A DNA stretch of 35,583 nt, from the IMG/VR virus record IMGVR_UViG_3300042261_001220, positions 1 to 35,583 of that record, one strand, 5' to 3'. Every line of letters starts with the position of its first letter. The stretch's first letter is position 1. The DNA is from a virus. Positions 2,644 to 19,500 of this stretch are shown here, in pieces. The translations under genes were made by a program, and so were the position numbers. The notes under the pieces were generated by a model. The model was not told the DNA's origin, searched no databases, and worked only from the letters and a program-made list of their open reading frames with translations.

Positions 2644-2856
2644 ATGAAAGAAGGTTGGAAATACGTACTATTAACATACAACTTTAAGTACGATTGTCAA
2701 GGAACTGAAGAATGGAGTAGCGCAGTAGCATTAATTCATTGCCCAGAAGATTGTTCTTTTGCAAACATTAGGAGCACATTATTTAGTCAAAAGAATGTTC
2801 CACATGAGCATGAGATTGATATTAATAGCGTAATAGACTCTACAATTGAATGGTGA
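2644..2856 (+). CDS. Unknown small protein
   Basis: 70 residues beginning MKEGWKYVLLTYNFKYDCQG. The pattern of short beta strands around aromatic residues suggests a small soluble alpha/beta protein. Three cysteines and several histidines (HCPEDC, PHEHE) could bind metal but do not form a standard finger. It is the last gene before the tmRNA-like locus. Function unknown. Confidence 0.6.
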   Translation: MKEGWKYVLLTYNFKYDCQGTEEWSSAVALIHCPEDCSFANIRSTLFSQKNVPHEHEIDINSVIDSTIEW

Positions 2857-2870
2857 AAATATTAAAATAT

Positions 2871-3180
2871 ACCAGCAGCACTTGGGGCTAGGCCTTATCT
2901 TTTAAGATACAAGGGTTAATAGTATACTCACTGCTGGTTCCTTAATGCCGATTCGTTGATCTTGAGATGAATTTCGTAAGACGAGGGTTCGAGCCCCTCT
3001 ACCTCCACTAATTTTACCACTTAATAGCTAACCAGCCGCTTTAGTGCTGTCCGTATGGGGGTAACTGGTTTTGATTGCGATTAGTAATGCAAAGGGAGAA
3101 GAAGCAGTTTTGATTAAATGGCAATAACAATGTAATTGTTCTTCATCAGCAGGTTAGACTTGCTGCATAAGACGTGCCTT
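2871..3180 (+). ncRNA. ssrA: Circularly permuted tmRNA (ssrA-like)
   Basis: Both halves of a tmRNA tRNA-like domain are present in reversed order. Upstream half: P2 3' strand (2970-2979), GAC, a perfect T-arm (GAGGG 2983-2987, loop TTCGAGC, CCCTC 2995-2999), acceptor 3' strand TACCTCC (3000-3006) and A3007, followed by CTA rather than CCA. After a 49-nt spacer (3008-3056) comes the 5' half: acceptor GGGGGTA (3057-3063), pairing with all seven upstream bases including a G-U third pair (the alanine identity element), then ACTGGTTTTGA, the tmRNA D-analogue, and TTGCGATT, which pairs with the P2 strand through a two-base bulge. A tag frame follows at 3120-3170 with a P5-like hairpin (3147-3165) around its end. 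The helix ACCAGCAG / CTGCTGGT (2871-2878 / 2931-2938) may be a pseudoknot domain or processing element. Outer ends are not certain. Confidence 0.85.
3120..3170 (+). other. tmRNA degradation-tag reading frame
   Basis: From the probable resume codon GGC the frame reads GNNNVIVLHQQVRLAA then TAA. The C-terminal LAA is the signature recognised by ClpXP-type proteases in known ssrA tags, and a Gly-Asn-rich start is seen in Bacteroidota tags. The exact resume codon is inferred from the frame and position, not proven. Confidence 0.75.
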
Positions 3181-3182
3181 AC

Positions 3183-3211
3183 AGGGCCCCACGAAAGAGG
3201 GCCCTATTTTT
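3183..3211 (+). terminator. Strong rho-independent terminator after the tmRNA
   Basis: AGGGCCC (3183-3189) pairs with GGGCCCT (3199-3205) around CACGAAAGA, followed by ATTTTT. It defines the 3' end of the permuted tmRNA transcript. Confidence 0.9.
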
Positions 3212-3240
3212 CATTTATAACACTTTAATTCAAATCAAAC

Positions 3241-3630
3241 ATGAAAAAAGAACCATTGTCTGTCCCTGCTAAGAAAAGTAAGCAGACGCTTTCCAAACGC
3301 TTAAAAAAGGTATATCATTTCCTTTTCAAGCAACGTACCCCTTACAGTAAATTAGGGGATATACGTAACCCTAAAAACATTAAGGAACAAGAAAAACAAA
3401 CATTCTACTTTTACATTAAAAACGTGATTGTAGATGGTTGTGGCCCACGTGTAGAAATACATATTGAAAAAAACGATTTTCCTCATATTAAAGGTACTTA
3501 TAAAAGTAACCTTAAAGCTTCTTCACCTGGTTCTGCTGAAAGTAGAGTTAAAGGTATTGCAAGAAGGAGATTAATTCAGGAAAAGAATTTTCCAATACAT
3601 GCTTCAAACATTCAATTTTATATTATATGA
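3241..3630 (+). CDS. Unknown basic protein
   Basis: 129 residues. The N-terminal 35 residues are highly basic and poorly structured (many Lys, Arg and Ser). From about residue 50 the protein looks folded: QTFYFYIKNVIVDG, VEIHIEKNDFPHIKGTY, then a basic helix (SRVKGIARRRLIQEKNF). A small DNA- or RNA-binding protein is possible. It has an A-rich leader (TTCAAATCAAAC) and no Shine-Dalgarno. Its stop overlaps the next start (ATGA), so translation is probably coupled. No family recognised. Confidence 0.6.
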   Translation: MKKEPLSVPAKKSKQTLSKRLKKVYHFLFKQRTPYSKLGDIRNPKNIKEQEKQTFYFYIKNVIVDGCGPRVEIHIEKNDFPHIKGTYKSNLKASSPGSAESRVKGIARRRLIQEKNFPIHASNIQFYII

Positions 3631-7688: not shown

Positions 7689-8037
7689 CCAGCATGTTAA
7701 GAAACTAATCACATTCTTCTTTGATTTACTTTTAGCTGATTTCATGGCTCTAGCTGAAGAAGGTGGTTACACCTTATCAAAACAAAGTGCTATTATAAAG
7801 GTAAGAGATGAAATAGTAAATTTCATTATCACCAGGCCTAAAGCACAGTTTACAATCTTATCTGACTACAGTAATATGGGTATCACAGTTGTTCCTGAAT
7901 CTACAGAACAAGTGTATAAACATTATACTATTATTGTAGCAAGTTCTGCTGAAACCTTTCAAATACTAGAAGAAACAGTAGTTGAAAAGGATAAGTTAAT
8001 GATTCTAGTTAAAGACTTTGATAATACAAAAACATGA
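7654..8037 (+). CDS. Unknown protein
   Basis: 127 residues; the start overlaps the previous gene by 35 bases and the end overlaps the next start by 4 (ATGA), so three genes look translationally linked. The N-terminal half is helical (LITFFFDLLLADFMALAEEGGY), then an alpha/beta region (AQFTILSDYSNMGITVVPEST, YTIIVASSAETFQILEE). No motif is recognised. Its tight link to the ANL-like gene downstream suggests a shared function. Confidence 0.55.
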   Translation: MLKRFAVAGPINQHVKKLITFFFDLLLADFMALAEEGGYTLSKQSAIIKVRDEIVNFIITRPKAQFTILSDYSNMGITVVPESTEQVYKHYTIIVASSAETFQILEETVVEKDKLMILVKDFDNTKT

Positions 8038-9575
8038 AAAATCATCTTCAATCAAGCAACTCGTTAAACTTACCAGTGTATTTTACATCTATTTTAGAGT
8101 TTATAACGAGTATTTTCAATAATATAACTGCAAAAAATTGGTTTATTATTGAAAAGAAATATGTTTTTGATAATTTATCCGATCCAAAAATTGAAGTTCG
8201 AGTGAACGGACACGAACTTTCAAATAAAATAACAACAATGATGTATCATATCATATATGATATAAATGCTACAGGTGGAAGAAGAATAGCAATACAAATG
8301 TCAAATTCCATTGATTTTATTGTAGTATTTTTTGCTACTATTTTAACCGGTAATTATCCTATATTAGTATCAAAAAAATTAAGTTTTATCAATTTGAAAT
8401 TTATACTTCAAAAAATAAAACCATGTTTTTTTATTACTGATTATGAATTAAAAGAAAAACAAATTATAGAGGATTTAGCATTTATCCCTAACTATAGTTG
8501 TTACAGTTGTATTTATTTTCGAAAAGAAGTACATGATTTTCCAATTAATCTTAAGGAACCAACAATAGGTGTTGTTACTGACGATTTACAGTTAATTTAC
8601 TATGAAAACACGCAATTATTACATTCAATAAATGTTGGATTATATTTGGCTAATTCAAAAGGAAATGAAATAGATACAACGAATGTATTTACAACCGATC
8701 TACCCTTTTATTGTTTGCCTATTTATAGTATGTTAATACCTCTTGCAACAAAGAGAGTAATAATATGTAGACCAAACGATGCTAAGGAATATCAGGCTAC
8801 TCATCGAATTGTTACCGCAGAATATTTTGATGAAATAGTAACAAATACTATTTCAAATCCTTGGTTATTTGACATGTCAATTTTTGGTTATTTCTACAGA
8901 AAATTAATTAAAAAAAGACTTATTAAAATATTTAGCACATCAATTAAAGAAATATCTGTATTAAATAAGGGAATTATTTCTTTAATAGTGAAAAAAAGAT
9001 TAGCAAAACTGCAAATTCCATATAAATTAGTTGTTGCTTCTGATCATATAGGGGTAATTGTTGCTAATACAGAATTAAATAACAAAAAATCCAATGAAAA
9101 TATGTTTGTTTTAAACACGTATTTTCAGAATTTGTCTTTTAATTCAGCTAATTTAGATGAATTGTTTGAATTGTTTTATACAACAGAATTAAACACTACC
9201 AAATCAACAAATTTGTTGTTTAAAATAAACAAAAAGAACAAATTAACATATTTTGGAACAGCCGATAATTTTATTGTAACACCGGTTGGTTTTAAGATAT
9301 ACCCAGAAGTAATTGAAGGTTACCTACTGAATACTTTACCATATGTAAAAGATTGTATGCTAATTAAACAAAGCAATAGGTTTTATTTATTAGTAACTAT
9401 CGATCACACAGTAGAAATTACACGTGATATTACATATGATGAAATTGAGAATGTGTTAAACTATCATATTAAGAACACGATAAGTACGAAGTTTGCTAAC
9501 ATTCTTGATTTCAAAGGAGTTATTATGCATGTAGGACAAATTGATAAATCAAAACGACATTTATATCTCGATTAG
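8034..9575 (+). CDS. Divergent acyl-adenylate-forming (ANL) superfamily protein
   Basis: 513 residues, the usual length of AMP-binding enzymes (acyl-CoA synthetases, peptide-synthetase A domains). Residues 84-110 (RIAIQMSNSIDF...ATILTGNYPI) match the 'vAi.m.Ns.ef...f.a.l..G..pv' region, and 124-136 the following 'kp...itd'. Near the C-terminus, LTYFGTADNFI and VGFKIYPEVIEGYLL (404-432) match motif A8 ('GR.DD.Ik..Gf.IyP.eIE'), then V-K-D and, at the end, VGQIDKSKR in the place of the catalytic-lysine motif. The glycine-rich ATP loop (SGTTG.PK), expected near 186-200, is missing: LIYYENTQLLHSIN runs on instead. So it may have lost adenylation or evolved a binding role. Family assignment is from several aligned landmarks; substrate unknown. 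Confidence 0.6.
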   Translation: MKNHLQSSNSLNLPVYFTSILEFITSIFNNITAKNWFIIEKKYVFDNLSDPKIEVRVNGHELSNKITTMMYHIIYDINATGGRRIAIQMSNSIDFIVVFFATILTGNYPILVSKKLSFINLKFILQKIKPCFFITDYELKEKQIIEDLAFIPNYSCYSCIYFRKEVHDFPINLKEPTIGVVTDDLQLIYYENTQLLHSINVGLYLANSKGNEIDTTNVFTTDLPFYCLPIYSMLIPLATKRVIICRPNDAKEYQATHRIVTAEYFDEIVTNTISNPWLFDMSIFGYFYRKLIKKRLIKIFSTSIKEISVLNKGIISLIVKKRLAKLQIPYKLVVASDHIGVIVANTELNNKKSNENMFVLNTYFQNLSFNSANLDELFELFYTTELNTTKSTNLLFKINKKNKLTYFGTADNFIVTPVGFKIYPEVIEGYLLNTLPYVKDCMLIKQSNRFYLLVTIDHTVEITRDITYDEIENVLNYHIKNTISTKFANILDFKGVIMHVGQIDKSKRHLYLD

Positions 9576-16060: not shown

Positions 16061-16438
16061 ATGAACGAAAAATTAAAAAAAGTAATAGATTATTTTAACG
16101 GAGACGAACTAGCTGCTAATGTTTGGTTAGATAAATATTGTCTGAAAGACAGAAATGGAAACCATTTAGAGGAAACTCCAGATGATATGCATAAACGTTT
16201 AGCCAAAGAATTTGCTAGAATTGAGCTGAAATACCCAAATCCAATGAGTTATGAAGAAATCTATTTTTTACTTCGCAACTTCAGATATATTTTACCTGGC
16301 GGTTCTATTCTTTATGGACTCGGTAACTCATTTTCTTACAGTACTCTTGGTAACTGTTTTGTTATTGGGAATAACTCGGATTCTTATGGGGGTATATTAT
16401 CACTTGATGAAGAGCAGGCGCAGCTAATGAAAAGACGT
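16061..16438 (+). CDS. nrdJ: Class II (B12-dependent) ribonucleotide reductase, exon 1
   Basis: 126 residues up to the intron. Contains LGNCFVIG with the active-site cysteine C99 and DEEQAQLMKRR, which in intact enzymes continues directly into [AG]GVGFDLS. Reading on into the intron gives nonsense (KHRCAS stop), which shows the break. The 5' splice site is set after CGT (T16438): GACGT pairs with GCGTC in the intron with a T-G pair at the cut, as in group I introns. Spliced to 17332-19500 the enzyme is 848 residues. It reduces ribonucleotides to deoxyribonucleotides with adenosylcobalamin as radical source and needs no NrdB subunit or oxygen. Confidence 0.88.
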
Positions 16439-17331
16439 AAACACCGCTGTGCGTCATAAATTTGTGAATTGCTGGAAAGCCTTAAAGTCTAATAAACTAC
16501 AACATAATCTGTAAAGATAGGTGTGAAAGTTTAAAAATTATTAGAATGAAACGCAACTAATTAATCCTAGTTACGTATAAATAGGTAATCAGCAGCCAAG
16601 TTTCTTTAAATACAAATTTATGATTTATAAAAATATAATAGGATATGAAGGACTTTATAAAATCTCTGAATATGGGGATATTATAAGACTTCCTAAAAAA
16701 GTAAAATCAGCCAGAAGTTCTAAAGGATTTAGAATTTTAACTGAAAAACAACTAACAACACAAACAAATAAATACGGTTATAATTATATCCAATTAACAG
16801 ATAATAATTATAAACGCAAACATTTTTTTATACATCAGTTAGTTGCTAAAACTTTTTTAGATAATTATAACAATCATATTTCAATAAATCATAAAGACGA
16901 AAACAAAACTAATAATCATTATTCTAATTTAGAATGGTGTACTATTAAACACAACAATCTTTATAATAACAGACAAAGTAAAATTAATATAGTTTTACAA
17001 AATACTGTTAAATCTAGAAAACCAATACAACAATTTGATACAGAAAATAATTTAATACAAGAATTTCAATCTATAAACGAAGCGTGTAGAAAACTAGGTA
17101 TATTTAAATATCCTATATCTCAGTGTTGTAAGAGTAAAAAGAAAAATTATAAGGGTTTTATTTGGAAATTTAAAGAAAAAGGCTCAACGACTATCTCGAA
17201 AGAGAGTACTCCGAAGTCGGAGGAAGCACAAATATCCTAATTAGGATAAGATATAGTCTAATCTCATATGAAAGTATGAGCAGTTCATAAGAGAACGTAT
17301 ACAGATTAACGAACTGTATAGAATATAATTG
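16439..17331 (+). mobile_element. Group I intron in the RNR gene
   Basis: 893 nt, ending in G17331. Core elements are seen in order: P (GAATTGCTGGAAAGCC from 16466), Q (AATCAGCAGCCAAG from 16587), R (CAACGACTATC from about 17184) and S (AAGATATAGTC, 17248-17258). R and S share GACTAT/ATAGTC for P7. P1 is GACGT/GCGTC, and P10 pairs CCGC in the intron with GCGG of exon 2. A homing endonuclease gene lies between Q and R. Confidence 0.9.
16620..17240 (+). CDS. HNH homing endonuclease (NUMOD4-HNH-NUMOD1) inside the intron
   Basis: 206 residues. NUMOD4 at the N-terminus (IIGYEGLYKISEYGDI), an HNH_3 core (HFFIHQLVAKTFL ... ISINHKDENKTNNHYSNLEWCT, about residues 62-108) and a NUMOD1 DNA-contact helix (PIQQFDTENNLIQEF, SINEACRKLGI). 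It would cut intron-less RNR alleles to spread the intron. The last about 20 residues (GSTTISKESTPKSEEAQIS) are read from the intron's R-element region, so the coding frame overlaps the ribozyme core. Confidence 0.88.
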   Translation: MIYKNIIGYEGLYKISEYGDIIRLPKKVKSARSSKGFRILTEKQLTTQTNKYGYNYIQLTDNNYKRKHFFIHQLVAKTFLDNYNNHISINHKDENKTNNHYSNLEWCTIKHNNLYNNRQSKINIVLQNTVKSRKPIQQFDTENNLIQEFQSINEACRKLGIFKYPISQCCKSKKKNYKGFIWKFKEKGSTTISKESTPKSEEAQIS

Positions 17332-19500
17332 GCGGGTGTGGGTTTTGATTTATCACATATAAGACCAAACAACGCATCAGTAACAAATTCTGCTGGTACA
17401 TCTACTGGTGCTATATCTTTCATGCATAGATTTTCACATACTGCAAGAGAGGTAGGACAAGATGGTAGACGAGGTGCATTAATGTTAAGTATCAACATTA
17501 ATCACCCAGATATAGAAGAATTTATCACTTCTAAATCTGATTTAACAAAAATAACTGGTGCTAATATATCAGTTAAAGTAGATGATAAATTTATGAAAGC
17601 TGTTGAAAACGATGAAAATTATATTCTATATTTTAGAAAAGAAGAGTGTTTTTCATCTAATCCAAGTAAAGCAATATCTATTAAAGCTAAAACTTTATGG
17701 AATAAATTAATTCATCAAGCTACTAAAACAGCAGAACCTGGTATTTTATATTGGGATACAATAGAAAGGGAATCCATCCCATCTTGTTATAGAGAAGAAT
17801 GGAAAGAAACGAGTACTAATCCGTGTGGTGAGATCCCACTCTGTCCATACGACAGTTGTCGTTTGATGAGTGTGAACTTGTACTCGTTTGTAGAGAAGCC
17901 CTTTACAGACAAAGCATACTTCAACTATGATAAATTCAAAGAGGTGGTGTATAAAGCACAACGACTAATGGATGATATAGTTGATTTAGAAGAAGAAAAG
18001 ATTAATTTAATATTAAATAAAATTGAAAATGATCCAGAACCTGAAGAAATTAAAATTCGTGAAAAGGATCTTTGGATTAAGATTAAAAATAAACTTATTT
18101 CCGGTCGTAGAACAGGATTGTCAGCGATTGGCCTTGCTGACTGTTTTGCTGCTATGCATATTCAGTATGGGTCTGATATATCTATTGATTTAGCAGAAGA
18201 AATATATAAACAATTTGCTATAGCTGCTTATAAGAGTAGTATAGATATGGCTGAAGAAAGGGGTGCTTTTCCTATTTGGGATTGGTCAAAAGAAGGCGAT
18301 AATCCTTTTATTGAAAGAATTATTCTCGAATTTAACGATCATCAAGAAGGAGCATATAGTTCTTTAGATTTGAAATATAGAACACATGGTCGTAGAAATA
18401 TTGCTTTATTAACCATACCGCCTTCGGGCACAATTTCACTTTTAGCAAATTTATCATCTGGAATTGAACCAGCTTATCAGTTATATTACAAACGTAGACG
18501 TAAAATTAATCCAGAAGATAAAGGTAAGAAAGTAGATTTTGTAGATCAGAATGGTGATAGTTGGGAAGAATATACTATATTACATCCTAAATTTAAAGAA
18601 TGGTTAGATAGTTACTTATCTACTAAAACAGAAGATCAGATTAGAAGGGTTAATGTTGGTGTATATGATGTGAATAAACTTAAACCAGTAATAACTGAAA
18701 TAGATTATACATATTATGCTTCAATTTCACCTTATAGGAATTCTACTTCATACGAAATAGACCCATTACAAAGAGTTAAATTACAGGCTATTATTCAGAA
18801 ATGGATTGATCATAGCATAAGCTCTACTATTAATCTTAAGAAAGGTACAACTGAAGAAGAAGTATCTAATTTATACTTTCAAGCATGGAAATTAGGTTGT
18901 AAAGGCTTAACTATCTATGTAGATGAAAGTAGAACTGGTGTGTTAGTATCACACGATACAAATACAACAGATTTTAAACAACATAATGCTCCTAAAAGAC
19001 CTAAAGAATTAGTATGTAATATACATTCTACTAAAGTAAGGGGAGAATCATTTTTAGTTGTTGTTGGTTTATTAGACAATAAACCATATGAAGTGTTCGT
19101 TTTAAGACCCAACGGTATAAATCCATCTGCCAAACAACACAAAATTATCAAACTTAACAAAGGAAATTATATTTTAACTACAATTGATTGGAACAATAAA
19201 GATGAAGGTTATAACTTTGGTAACATAGTTGAAACTTTATCAGATGAAGAGAAATTAATTACACGATTGATATCTACTTCATTAAGACATGGTTCTAGTA
19301 TTCAATTTGTAGTTGAACAATTAAATAAATCTACTGGTGATATTACATCATTCGGTAAAGCAATTGCAAGGGTATTAAAGACCTATATACCAGATCAAGT
19401 AATTACAGGTAAAGAGTGTGATGAATGTAAGTCTACTGATTTAAGGTATGAAAGTGGTTGTGTTATATGCAACAACTGTGGGTTTTCAAAATGTGGTTAA
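17332..19500 (+). CDS. nrdJ: Class II ribonucleotide reductase, exon 2
   Basis: 722 residues after the intron. Starts AGVGFDLSHIRP and carries NSAGTSTG, TNPCGEIPL (catalytic Asn, Cys and Glu, about 289-293 in the spliced protein), GRRTGLSAIGLAD, PPSGTISLLA and LGCKGLTIY, the barrel motifs of NrdJ. The last about 27 residues are a cysteine cluster (ECDECK ... CVICNNCG ... KC) typical of the C-terminal redox or zinc tail of class II enzymes. Exon 2 is taken to begin at GCG (17332) because the intron ends in G and the frame restores RR-AGVGFD. ThyX follows 18 bases later. Confidence 0.9.
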   Translation, partial: AGVGFDLSHIRPNNASVTNSAGTSTGAISFMHRFSHTAREVGQDGRRGALMLSININHPDIEEFITSKSDLTKITGANISVKVDDKFMKAVENDENYILYFRKEECFSSNPSKAISIKAKTLWNKLIHQATKTAEPGILYWDTIERESIPSCYREEWKETSTNPCGEIPLCPYDSCRLMSVNLYSFVEKPFTDKAYFNYDKFKEVVYKAQRLMDDIVDLEEEKINLILNKIENDPEPEEIKIREKDLWIKIKNKLISGRRTGLSAIGLADCFAAMHIQYGSDISIDLAEEIYKQFAIAAYKSSIDMAEERGAFPIWDWSKEGDNPFIERIILEFNDHQEGAYSSLDLKYRTHGRRNIALLTIPPSGTISLLANLSSGIEPAYQLYYKRRRKINPEDKGKKVDFVDQNGDSWEEYTILHPKFKEWLDSYLSTKTEDQIRRVNVGVYDVNKLKPVITEIDYTYYASISPYRNSTSYEIDPLQRVKLQAIIQKWIDHSISSTINLKKGTTEEEVSNLYFQAWKLGCKGLTIYVDESRTGVLVSHDTNTTDFKQHNAPKRPKELVCNIHSTKVRGESFLVVVGLLDNKPYEVFVLRPNGINPSAKQHKIIKLNKGNYILTTIDWNNKDEGYNFGNIVETLSDEEKLITRLISTSLRHGSSIQFVVEQLNKSTGDITSFGKAIARVLKTYIPDQVITGKECDECKSTDLRYESGCVICNNCGFSKCG

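Follow-up and report, generated by a model that had tools for sequence, protein, structure and literature searches.

Two-piece tmRNA has so far been described from three bacterial lineages and from marine phages whose hosts belong to these lineages or are related to them. The Rfam family of the permuted gene, RF04321 (tmRNA_permuted), was built from alphaproteobacterial, betaproteobacterial and cyanobacterial sequences; RefSeq viruses were included in the screen behind the tmRNA database (PMC11915505). Two-piece tmRNA is cleaved by tRNA-processing enzymes, alanylated via a G3-U70 pair and used with SmpB (PMC11915505, PMC9004378). Phage versions are known and made up 53 of the 133 unique phage tmRNA structures by 2021, nearly all marine or aquatic (PMC9004378). 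The tmRNAs of the marine Methylophilales phage Melnitz and Pelagibacter phage Mosig are permuted, need the SmpB of the host and fall with two-piece bacterial lineages, and these phages infect Proteobacteria (PMC9004378). The locus described here is likewise phage-borne and permuted, whereas its inferred hosts are one-piece Bacteroidota.

The window, that is, the whole 35,583-nucleotide stretch of viral DNA, carries a circularly permuted tmRNA (ssrA) gene of a phage at 2954-3170 on the + strand. RF04321 matches there end to end with 52.9 bits against a curated cut-off of 47 (E 9.6e-8 in a search that covered the full window and all of Rfam), and this is the sole Rfam match in the 35.6 kb. R1, a covariance model for which 12 related phage loci were used and the window was omitted, finds the same locus with 81.1 bits and an E value of 2.2e-17, and nothing else in the window. 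R1 also gives 77-79 bits to alpha-type permuted tmRNAs and as many as ~40 bits to one-piece tmRNAs of Bacteroidota, so its match shows homology to permuted tmRNA and not to a subgroup. The beta-tmRNA model RF01850 reaches 28.1 bits, under its cut-off of 84, which does not place the locus in that subfamily. Neither alpha-tmRNA RF01849 nor cyano-tmRNA RF01851 reported a match in 2700-3400 at E up to 10, and one-piece tmRNA RF00023 gave no above-cut-off match in the window, in output where overlapping matches of one clan are represented by the best-scoring one; the gene order in the window is permuted.

The preliminary description of this DNA had proposed a permuted tmRNA in a phage genome, spanning 2871-3211, and had named the Rfam permuted-tmRNA models as a check. 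The RF04321 match above cut-off and the hold-out result bear the proposal out, and the outcome in which no tmRNA model matches is excluded. Its details on the T-arm, the acceptor strands, the 49-nt gap, P2, GGTTTTGA, the tag frame and the terminator are all correct. Its span stands in part, as 2954-3170 lies within the RF04321 match but 2871-2940 is a separate hairpin that no Rfam tmRNA model covers. The elements of the locus are as follows (L numbers are related loci, listed further below).

2871-2938, + strand: hairpin domain ACCAGCAG...CTGCTGGT, directly upstream of the acceptor piece (dG -23 kcal/mol, z -2.2)
2952-2961, + strand: recurrent motif TTCGTTGATC near the 5' end of the acceptor piece, like GTTCRTTGA in L003, L004, L005, L008, L017 and others
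2974-2979, + strand: P2 strand of the acceptor piece, TCGTAA, 6/6 pairs with 3075-3080
2983-2999, + strand: T-arm GAGGG-TTCGAGC-CCCTC, from the RF04321 and R1 alignments; the T-stem covaries
3000-3010, + strand: acceptor 3' strand TACCTCC (3000-3006), discriminator A73 (3007), then CTA in the place of CCA
3008-3056, + strand: intervening sequence (IVS), 49 nt, expected to be removed; 41 to 231 nt in relatives
3057-3063, + strand: acceptor 5' strand GGGGGTA, G1 at 3057, 7/7 pairs with G3-U70
3064-3074, + strand: D-loop analogue ACTGGTTTTGA, the same letters as in the one-piece tmRNA of 37/395 Bacteroidota genomes
3075-3080, + strand: P2 strand of the coding piece, TTGCGA, pairing with its own partner
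3115-3119, + strand: resume context TAAAT, directly 5' of the first tag codon; most of the group, like Bacteroidota one-piece tmRNAs, has TAANN here
3120-3170, + strand: tag reading frame GNNNVIVLHQQVRLAA, from GGC at 3120 to the stop TAA at 3168-3170; related tags in L040, L009 and L005
3183-3211, + strand: intrinsic terminator AGGGCCC-CACGAAAGA-GGGCCCT-ATTTTT, from sequence and fold

The tRNA-like 3' part precedes the 5' part and the IVS joins them, which is the order of the permuted form. The two parts form a 7-bp acceptor with the alanine identity pair G3-U70, an acceptor-adjacent P2 connects the pieces with 6/6 pairs including one G-U (TTGCGA/TCGTAA), the tag frame has an alanine-rich end, and the terminator is a 7-bp G+C hairpin followed by TATTTTT. 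This order, G3-U70, the T-arm, the cross-gap P2, the IVS and an alanine-ending tag are common to the window and the bacterial permuted tmRNAs (RF04321, RF01849-RF01851; PMC11915505). The window differs from the RF04321 seed, which holds alpha-, betaproteobacteria and cyanobacteria only, in its D-loop analogue TTTTGA and in a tRNA-like domain that is nearer to the Bacteroidota one-piece form. Folding of the window prefers a local hairpin in the acceptor piece, and the distal pairing between acceptor and coding pieces is not recovered.

Pattern scans and blastn yielded 21 further loci, which were assembled with the window to give 22 in total.

IMG/VR contigs, L002-L009 and L017-L019: permuted tmRNA
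crAss-like phages cr125_1, cr272_1, cr114_1, cr53_1, cr60_1, cr10_1 and cr50_1: L011, L012, L035-L039
Chryseobacterium phage MA9V-3: L014
Dulem virus 42: L015
Bacteroidota genome copy: L040

The crAss-like phage cr273_1 (L013, a near-copy of cr272_1) and Maribacter phage Panino (L061) are also carriers. Four other pattern matches in genome contigs (L020-L023) were set aside as chance, because neither Rfam nor ARAGORN finds a tmRNA there. At the level of the whole window, megablast against phages gave no match, and searches with its 794-aa protein and with its exonuclease found no relatives; with no close phage relative found, conservation rests on distant homologues.

A reading of the locus as a chance resemblance, or as a broken tRNA gene taken for tmRNA, would fit the short T-arm and acceptor strands and the fact that ARAGORN with default settings reports no tmRNA in the window. 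The hold-out E value of 2e-17, the Rfam cut-off passed and the same layout in 21 other assembled loci refute it, and we give it practically no probability.

Compensatory changes support the pairing. In the alignment of 12 loci, 98.9% of cells pair against 85.2% when shuffled, the covariation score of 0.413 compares with 0.131 for shuffled data (0/500) and with no more than 0.116 for slid partners, and two-sided changes are found in P2, the T-stem and the acceptor. Over the 22 loci, P2 strands reach a mean of -5.9 kcal/mol with their own partners and -2.7 with those of other loci, a difference that 0/5000 permutations equalled; the P2 duplex of the window has -5.0 kcal/mol against a cross mean of -2.1. 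G3-U70 is present in 22/22 loci and the acceptor is paired 7/7 in 21/22, where L003/L004 and L011/L035 are close relatives and the counts are thus not independent events. Across the group, pairs 4-7 of the acceptor show compensatory changes: pair 5 occurs as G-C, C-G, A-U or U-A, and pairs 6 and 7 swap as well.

The preliminary description had regarded a permuted tmRNA in a probable Bacteroidota phage as unexpected. The window is not a sole case, since crAss-like and flavobacterial phages carry the permuted gene too, some of them with an SsrA annotation. The records of cr10_1, cr50_1, cr60_1, cr114_1, cr125_1, cr272_1, cr273_1, MA9V-3 and Panino annotate 'SsrA' and leave the permuted form unstated, and ARAGORN calls these relatives permuted. 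They have the layout of the window, Gly-starting tags and the resume context TAANN, while their tags and IVS differ from those of the window. The permuted tmRNAs of cr53_1 (L036) and Dulem virus 42 (L015) lie in records without a tmRNA annotation at the site. Because related gut and marine phages carry it as well, the permuted tmRNA of Bacteroidota phages is a real, largely unremarked gene family. In the papers searched, permuted tmRNA is not discussed for crAss-like phages or for other phages of Bacteroidota, and its presence in this phage group seems unremarked; as RefSeq viruses have been screened, the RefSeq crAss-like copies may already be in the tmRNA database.

The IVS of L014 and L019, from distant phages, have CAAGAAGTT and ACTGAGCATGGTCAGT in common, and a conserved hairpin in the IVS may guide processing. 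In cr114_1 a tRNA-His(gtg) gene lies inside the IVS (L035:1565-1637), and the related cr125_1 has no tRNA there; the literature describes one tRNA-Ala within an IVS, from a nominally archaeal MAG, as unique (PMC11915505). Just after the coding piece, L011 and L035 (both at ~1850-1980) and L036 (downstream of the tag) have a tRNA-like element with a T-arm (GGAGGGTTCGATTCCCTCC) and short acceptor pairing, which possibly sets the 3' end of the coding piece. Outside the group, ARAGORN reports a permuted tmRNA with the tag VAANDDSYTVRIAA in the gammaproteobacterial Stenotrophomonas phage Marzo (L062, 1449-1823), between tRNA genes.

The host phylum of the window phage is probably Bacteroidota, judging from protein matches, the Bacteroidota-type tRNA-like domain and the resume context. 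The ribonucleotide reductase has its best matches in crAss-like and Bacteroides phages, and those of the exonuclease are mostly Phocaeicola phages among the best matches listed. The ribonucleotide reductase region (16061-19500) is split by a NUMOD4/HNH endonuclease ORF (16620-17240), which may be intron-like or a free-standing homing gene. The DNA polymerase is also split (22902-24056/24350-25210), and possibly the DnaB-like helicase gene too (26475-26786/27325-27921). A 513-aa protein at 8034-9575 weakly resembles AMP-binding enzymes (PF00501, E 5e-5, below cut-off), which would be unusual in a phage.

Bacteroidota tmRNA is generally one-piece, as had been stated beforehand: RF00023 scores over its cut-off in 60/61 Bacteroidota genomes and RF04321 in 1/395, the one being a phage-like copy beside phage genes. 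This copy, L040, is in a 1.6-Mb contig, where genes for a phage-type DNA polymerase, a DnaB-like helicase and Sak4 lie no more than ~10 kb away. The region looks like a prophage, an assembly error being the alternative, and the same genome also holds an ordinary one-piece tmRNA. A decaying, functionless copy of a host gene gained by recombination might be expected from hosts whose one-piece tmRNA has a similar tRNA-like domain, and phages can carry ssrA fragments. In the window, however, all elements are intact, compensatory changes run across distant phages, related tags are kept, and the permuted order is missing from the sampled hosts except in that one phage-like region. We therefore regard decay as very improbable.

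The one-piece tmRNA of Bacteroidota (RF00023) resembles the window in GACTGGTTTTGACAG and TTGTTTGGACGAGGGTTCGA, which part of the phylum has, in the resume sequence TAANN-GGC and in some Gly-starting tags. It is unlike the window in not being permuted, in consisting of a single RNA that continues for long beyond the tag, and in having a tag of 9-10 residues that usually ends in YALAA or YAMAA. A tRNA-like domain with GGGGNNGACTGGTTTTGACNGC is found in 37/395 Bacteroidota genomes, and extracted examples have TGTTTGGAC before the T-arm. Over 56 positions of this domain the window is 80% identical to Bacteroidota one-piece tmRNA and 71% to alpha-type phage tmRNA, and for 21/22 phage loci the nearest comparison sequence is a Bacteroidota one-piece tmRNA or a tie with one, in a comparison set that is unbalanced (41 vs 8). 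The exception is L006, whose tRNA-like domain is closer to the alpha-type. A tree of the 56 tRNA-domain columns with the RF04321 consensus row rejects a single clade of all permuted rows (p 0.006); the same test on a reduced set without that consensus and without L062 gives p 0.44. The Bacteroidota-like tRNA-like domain suggests, short of proof, a separate permutation in Bacteroidota or their phages, which is the origin we favour.

The tags of the group are 10-23 residues long, and the majority have small residues at the end, often AA. In most loci the tag opens with GGC or GAC, preceded by TAANN, as in many Bacteroidota one-piece tmRNAs. Related to the tag of the window are GKVIQMNNAPVRLAA (L040), GKVIQMFAQPVRLAA (L009) and GKLISLNNAPLRAVA (L005), the first of which shares the end VRLAA with it. 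In most group tags an Arg or Lys stands a little ahead of the small residues at the end (VRLAA, LRAVA, TRIAA, MRAAA), and nearly all sampled Bacteroidota host tags end in YALAA or YAMAA; one host tag ends in YRLAA (L049). In our reading, host proteases may handle the phage tags differently.

This difference could be taken further. The two-piece tmRNA would be functional, and its main use would be to displace or retune host trans-translation, through competition for SmpB and through changed proteolysis, since proteins whose tag lacks the host YALAA/YAMAA end could escape proteolysis or undergo it differently. The Arg or Lys near the end of most group tags favours such a use. Against it, most of the tags still have small residues, often AA, at their end, which are possible degrons, and a host tag also has the YRLAA end. 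We consider it unlikely that retuning is the main use.

We consider it very likely that the phage encodes a permuted ssrA whose two RNAs are charged by the host, rescue ribosomes and add a tag of their own. One transcript would run from the acceptor piece (~2950-3007) through the IVS (3008-3056) into the coding piece, which starts at 3057 and extends to the terminator at 3183-3211. Host RNase P would cut at 3056/3057, and RNase Z or exonucleases together with the CCA-adding enzyme would act near 3007; as CTA follows A73, the CCA is presumably completed by a host enzyme. The two RNAs would be held together by the acceptor stem and P2, and the host alanyl-tRNA synthetase would read G3-U70 and charge the molecule with alanine. 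During infection, host SmpB and EF-Tu would deliver it to ribosomes that have stalled on broken mRNA. Translation would resume at GGC 3120, add alanine plus GNNNVIVLHQQVRLAA and end at TAA 3168. The phage would in this way keep ribosomes in use and mark broken products with its own tag. Searches for SmpB in the window and in 13 group records were negative, with control genomes positive, so the host must supply it. From these elements we infer expression, processing to two pieces with ends near 3007 and 3057, charging, function and a fate of proteins altered by the tag.

On the 5' side of the gene, the hairpin at 2871-2938 matches no known ribozyme or riboswitch in Rfam at E up to 10, and neither ARAGORN nor Rfam finds a tRNA there. 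In relatives this place is taken by a promoter-like site, a tRNA or a different structured domain. L003, L004, L008, L009 and L017 have a promoter element of the Bacteroidota type, TAnnTTTG, a few bases 5' of the acceptor piece, and a tRNA gene is directly upstream in L005, L007, L040 and L061; unlike in several relatives, no TAnnTTTG promoter was found just upstream of the window gene. Our guess is that the hairpin may be a 5'-processing or regulatory element that sets or protects the 5' end. In a constrained fold its 3' strand could pair with the coding piece, so the hairpin may belong to a distal P2. In cr125_1, a RAGATH-9 RNA (RF03146, 154 bits; L011:1282-1450) ends shortly before the acceptor piece and could share in processing.

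Two-piece tmRNA is found here in phages with inferred one-piece hosts, including human-gut crAss-like and cultured flavobacterial phages. Standard annotation can miss the permuted gene, as ARAGORN did in the window and as the records of cr53_1 and Dulem virus 42 did at their sites. As a plausible though tentative proposal, Bacteroidota phages may themselves have permuted a Bacteroidota one-piece ssrA, a further origin outside alpha-, betaproteobacteria and cyanobacteria, and the gene, with a retuned tag, may have spread among crAss-like and flavobacterial phages; two tmRNA architectures would then operate next to each other in infected cells. The group offers a natural system for studying why a phage brings a rescue RNA of its own, whether a different tag affects the fate of tagged proteins, and whether ssrA was permuted once more in viruses.
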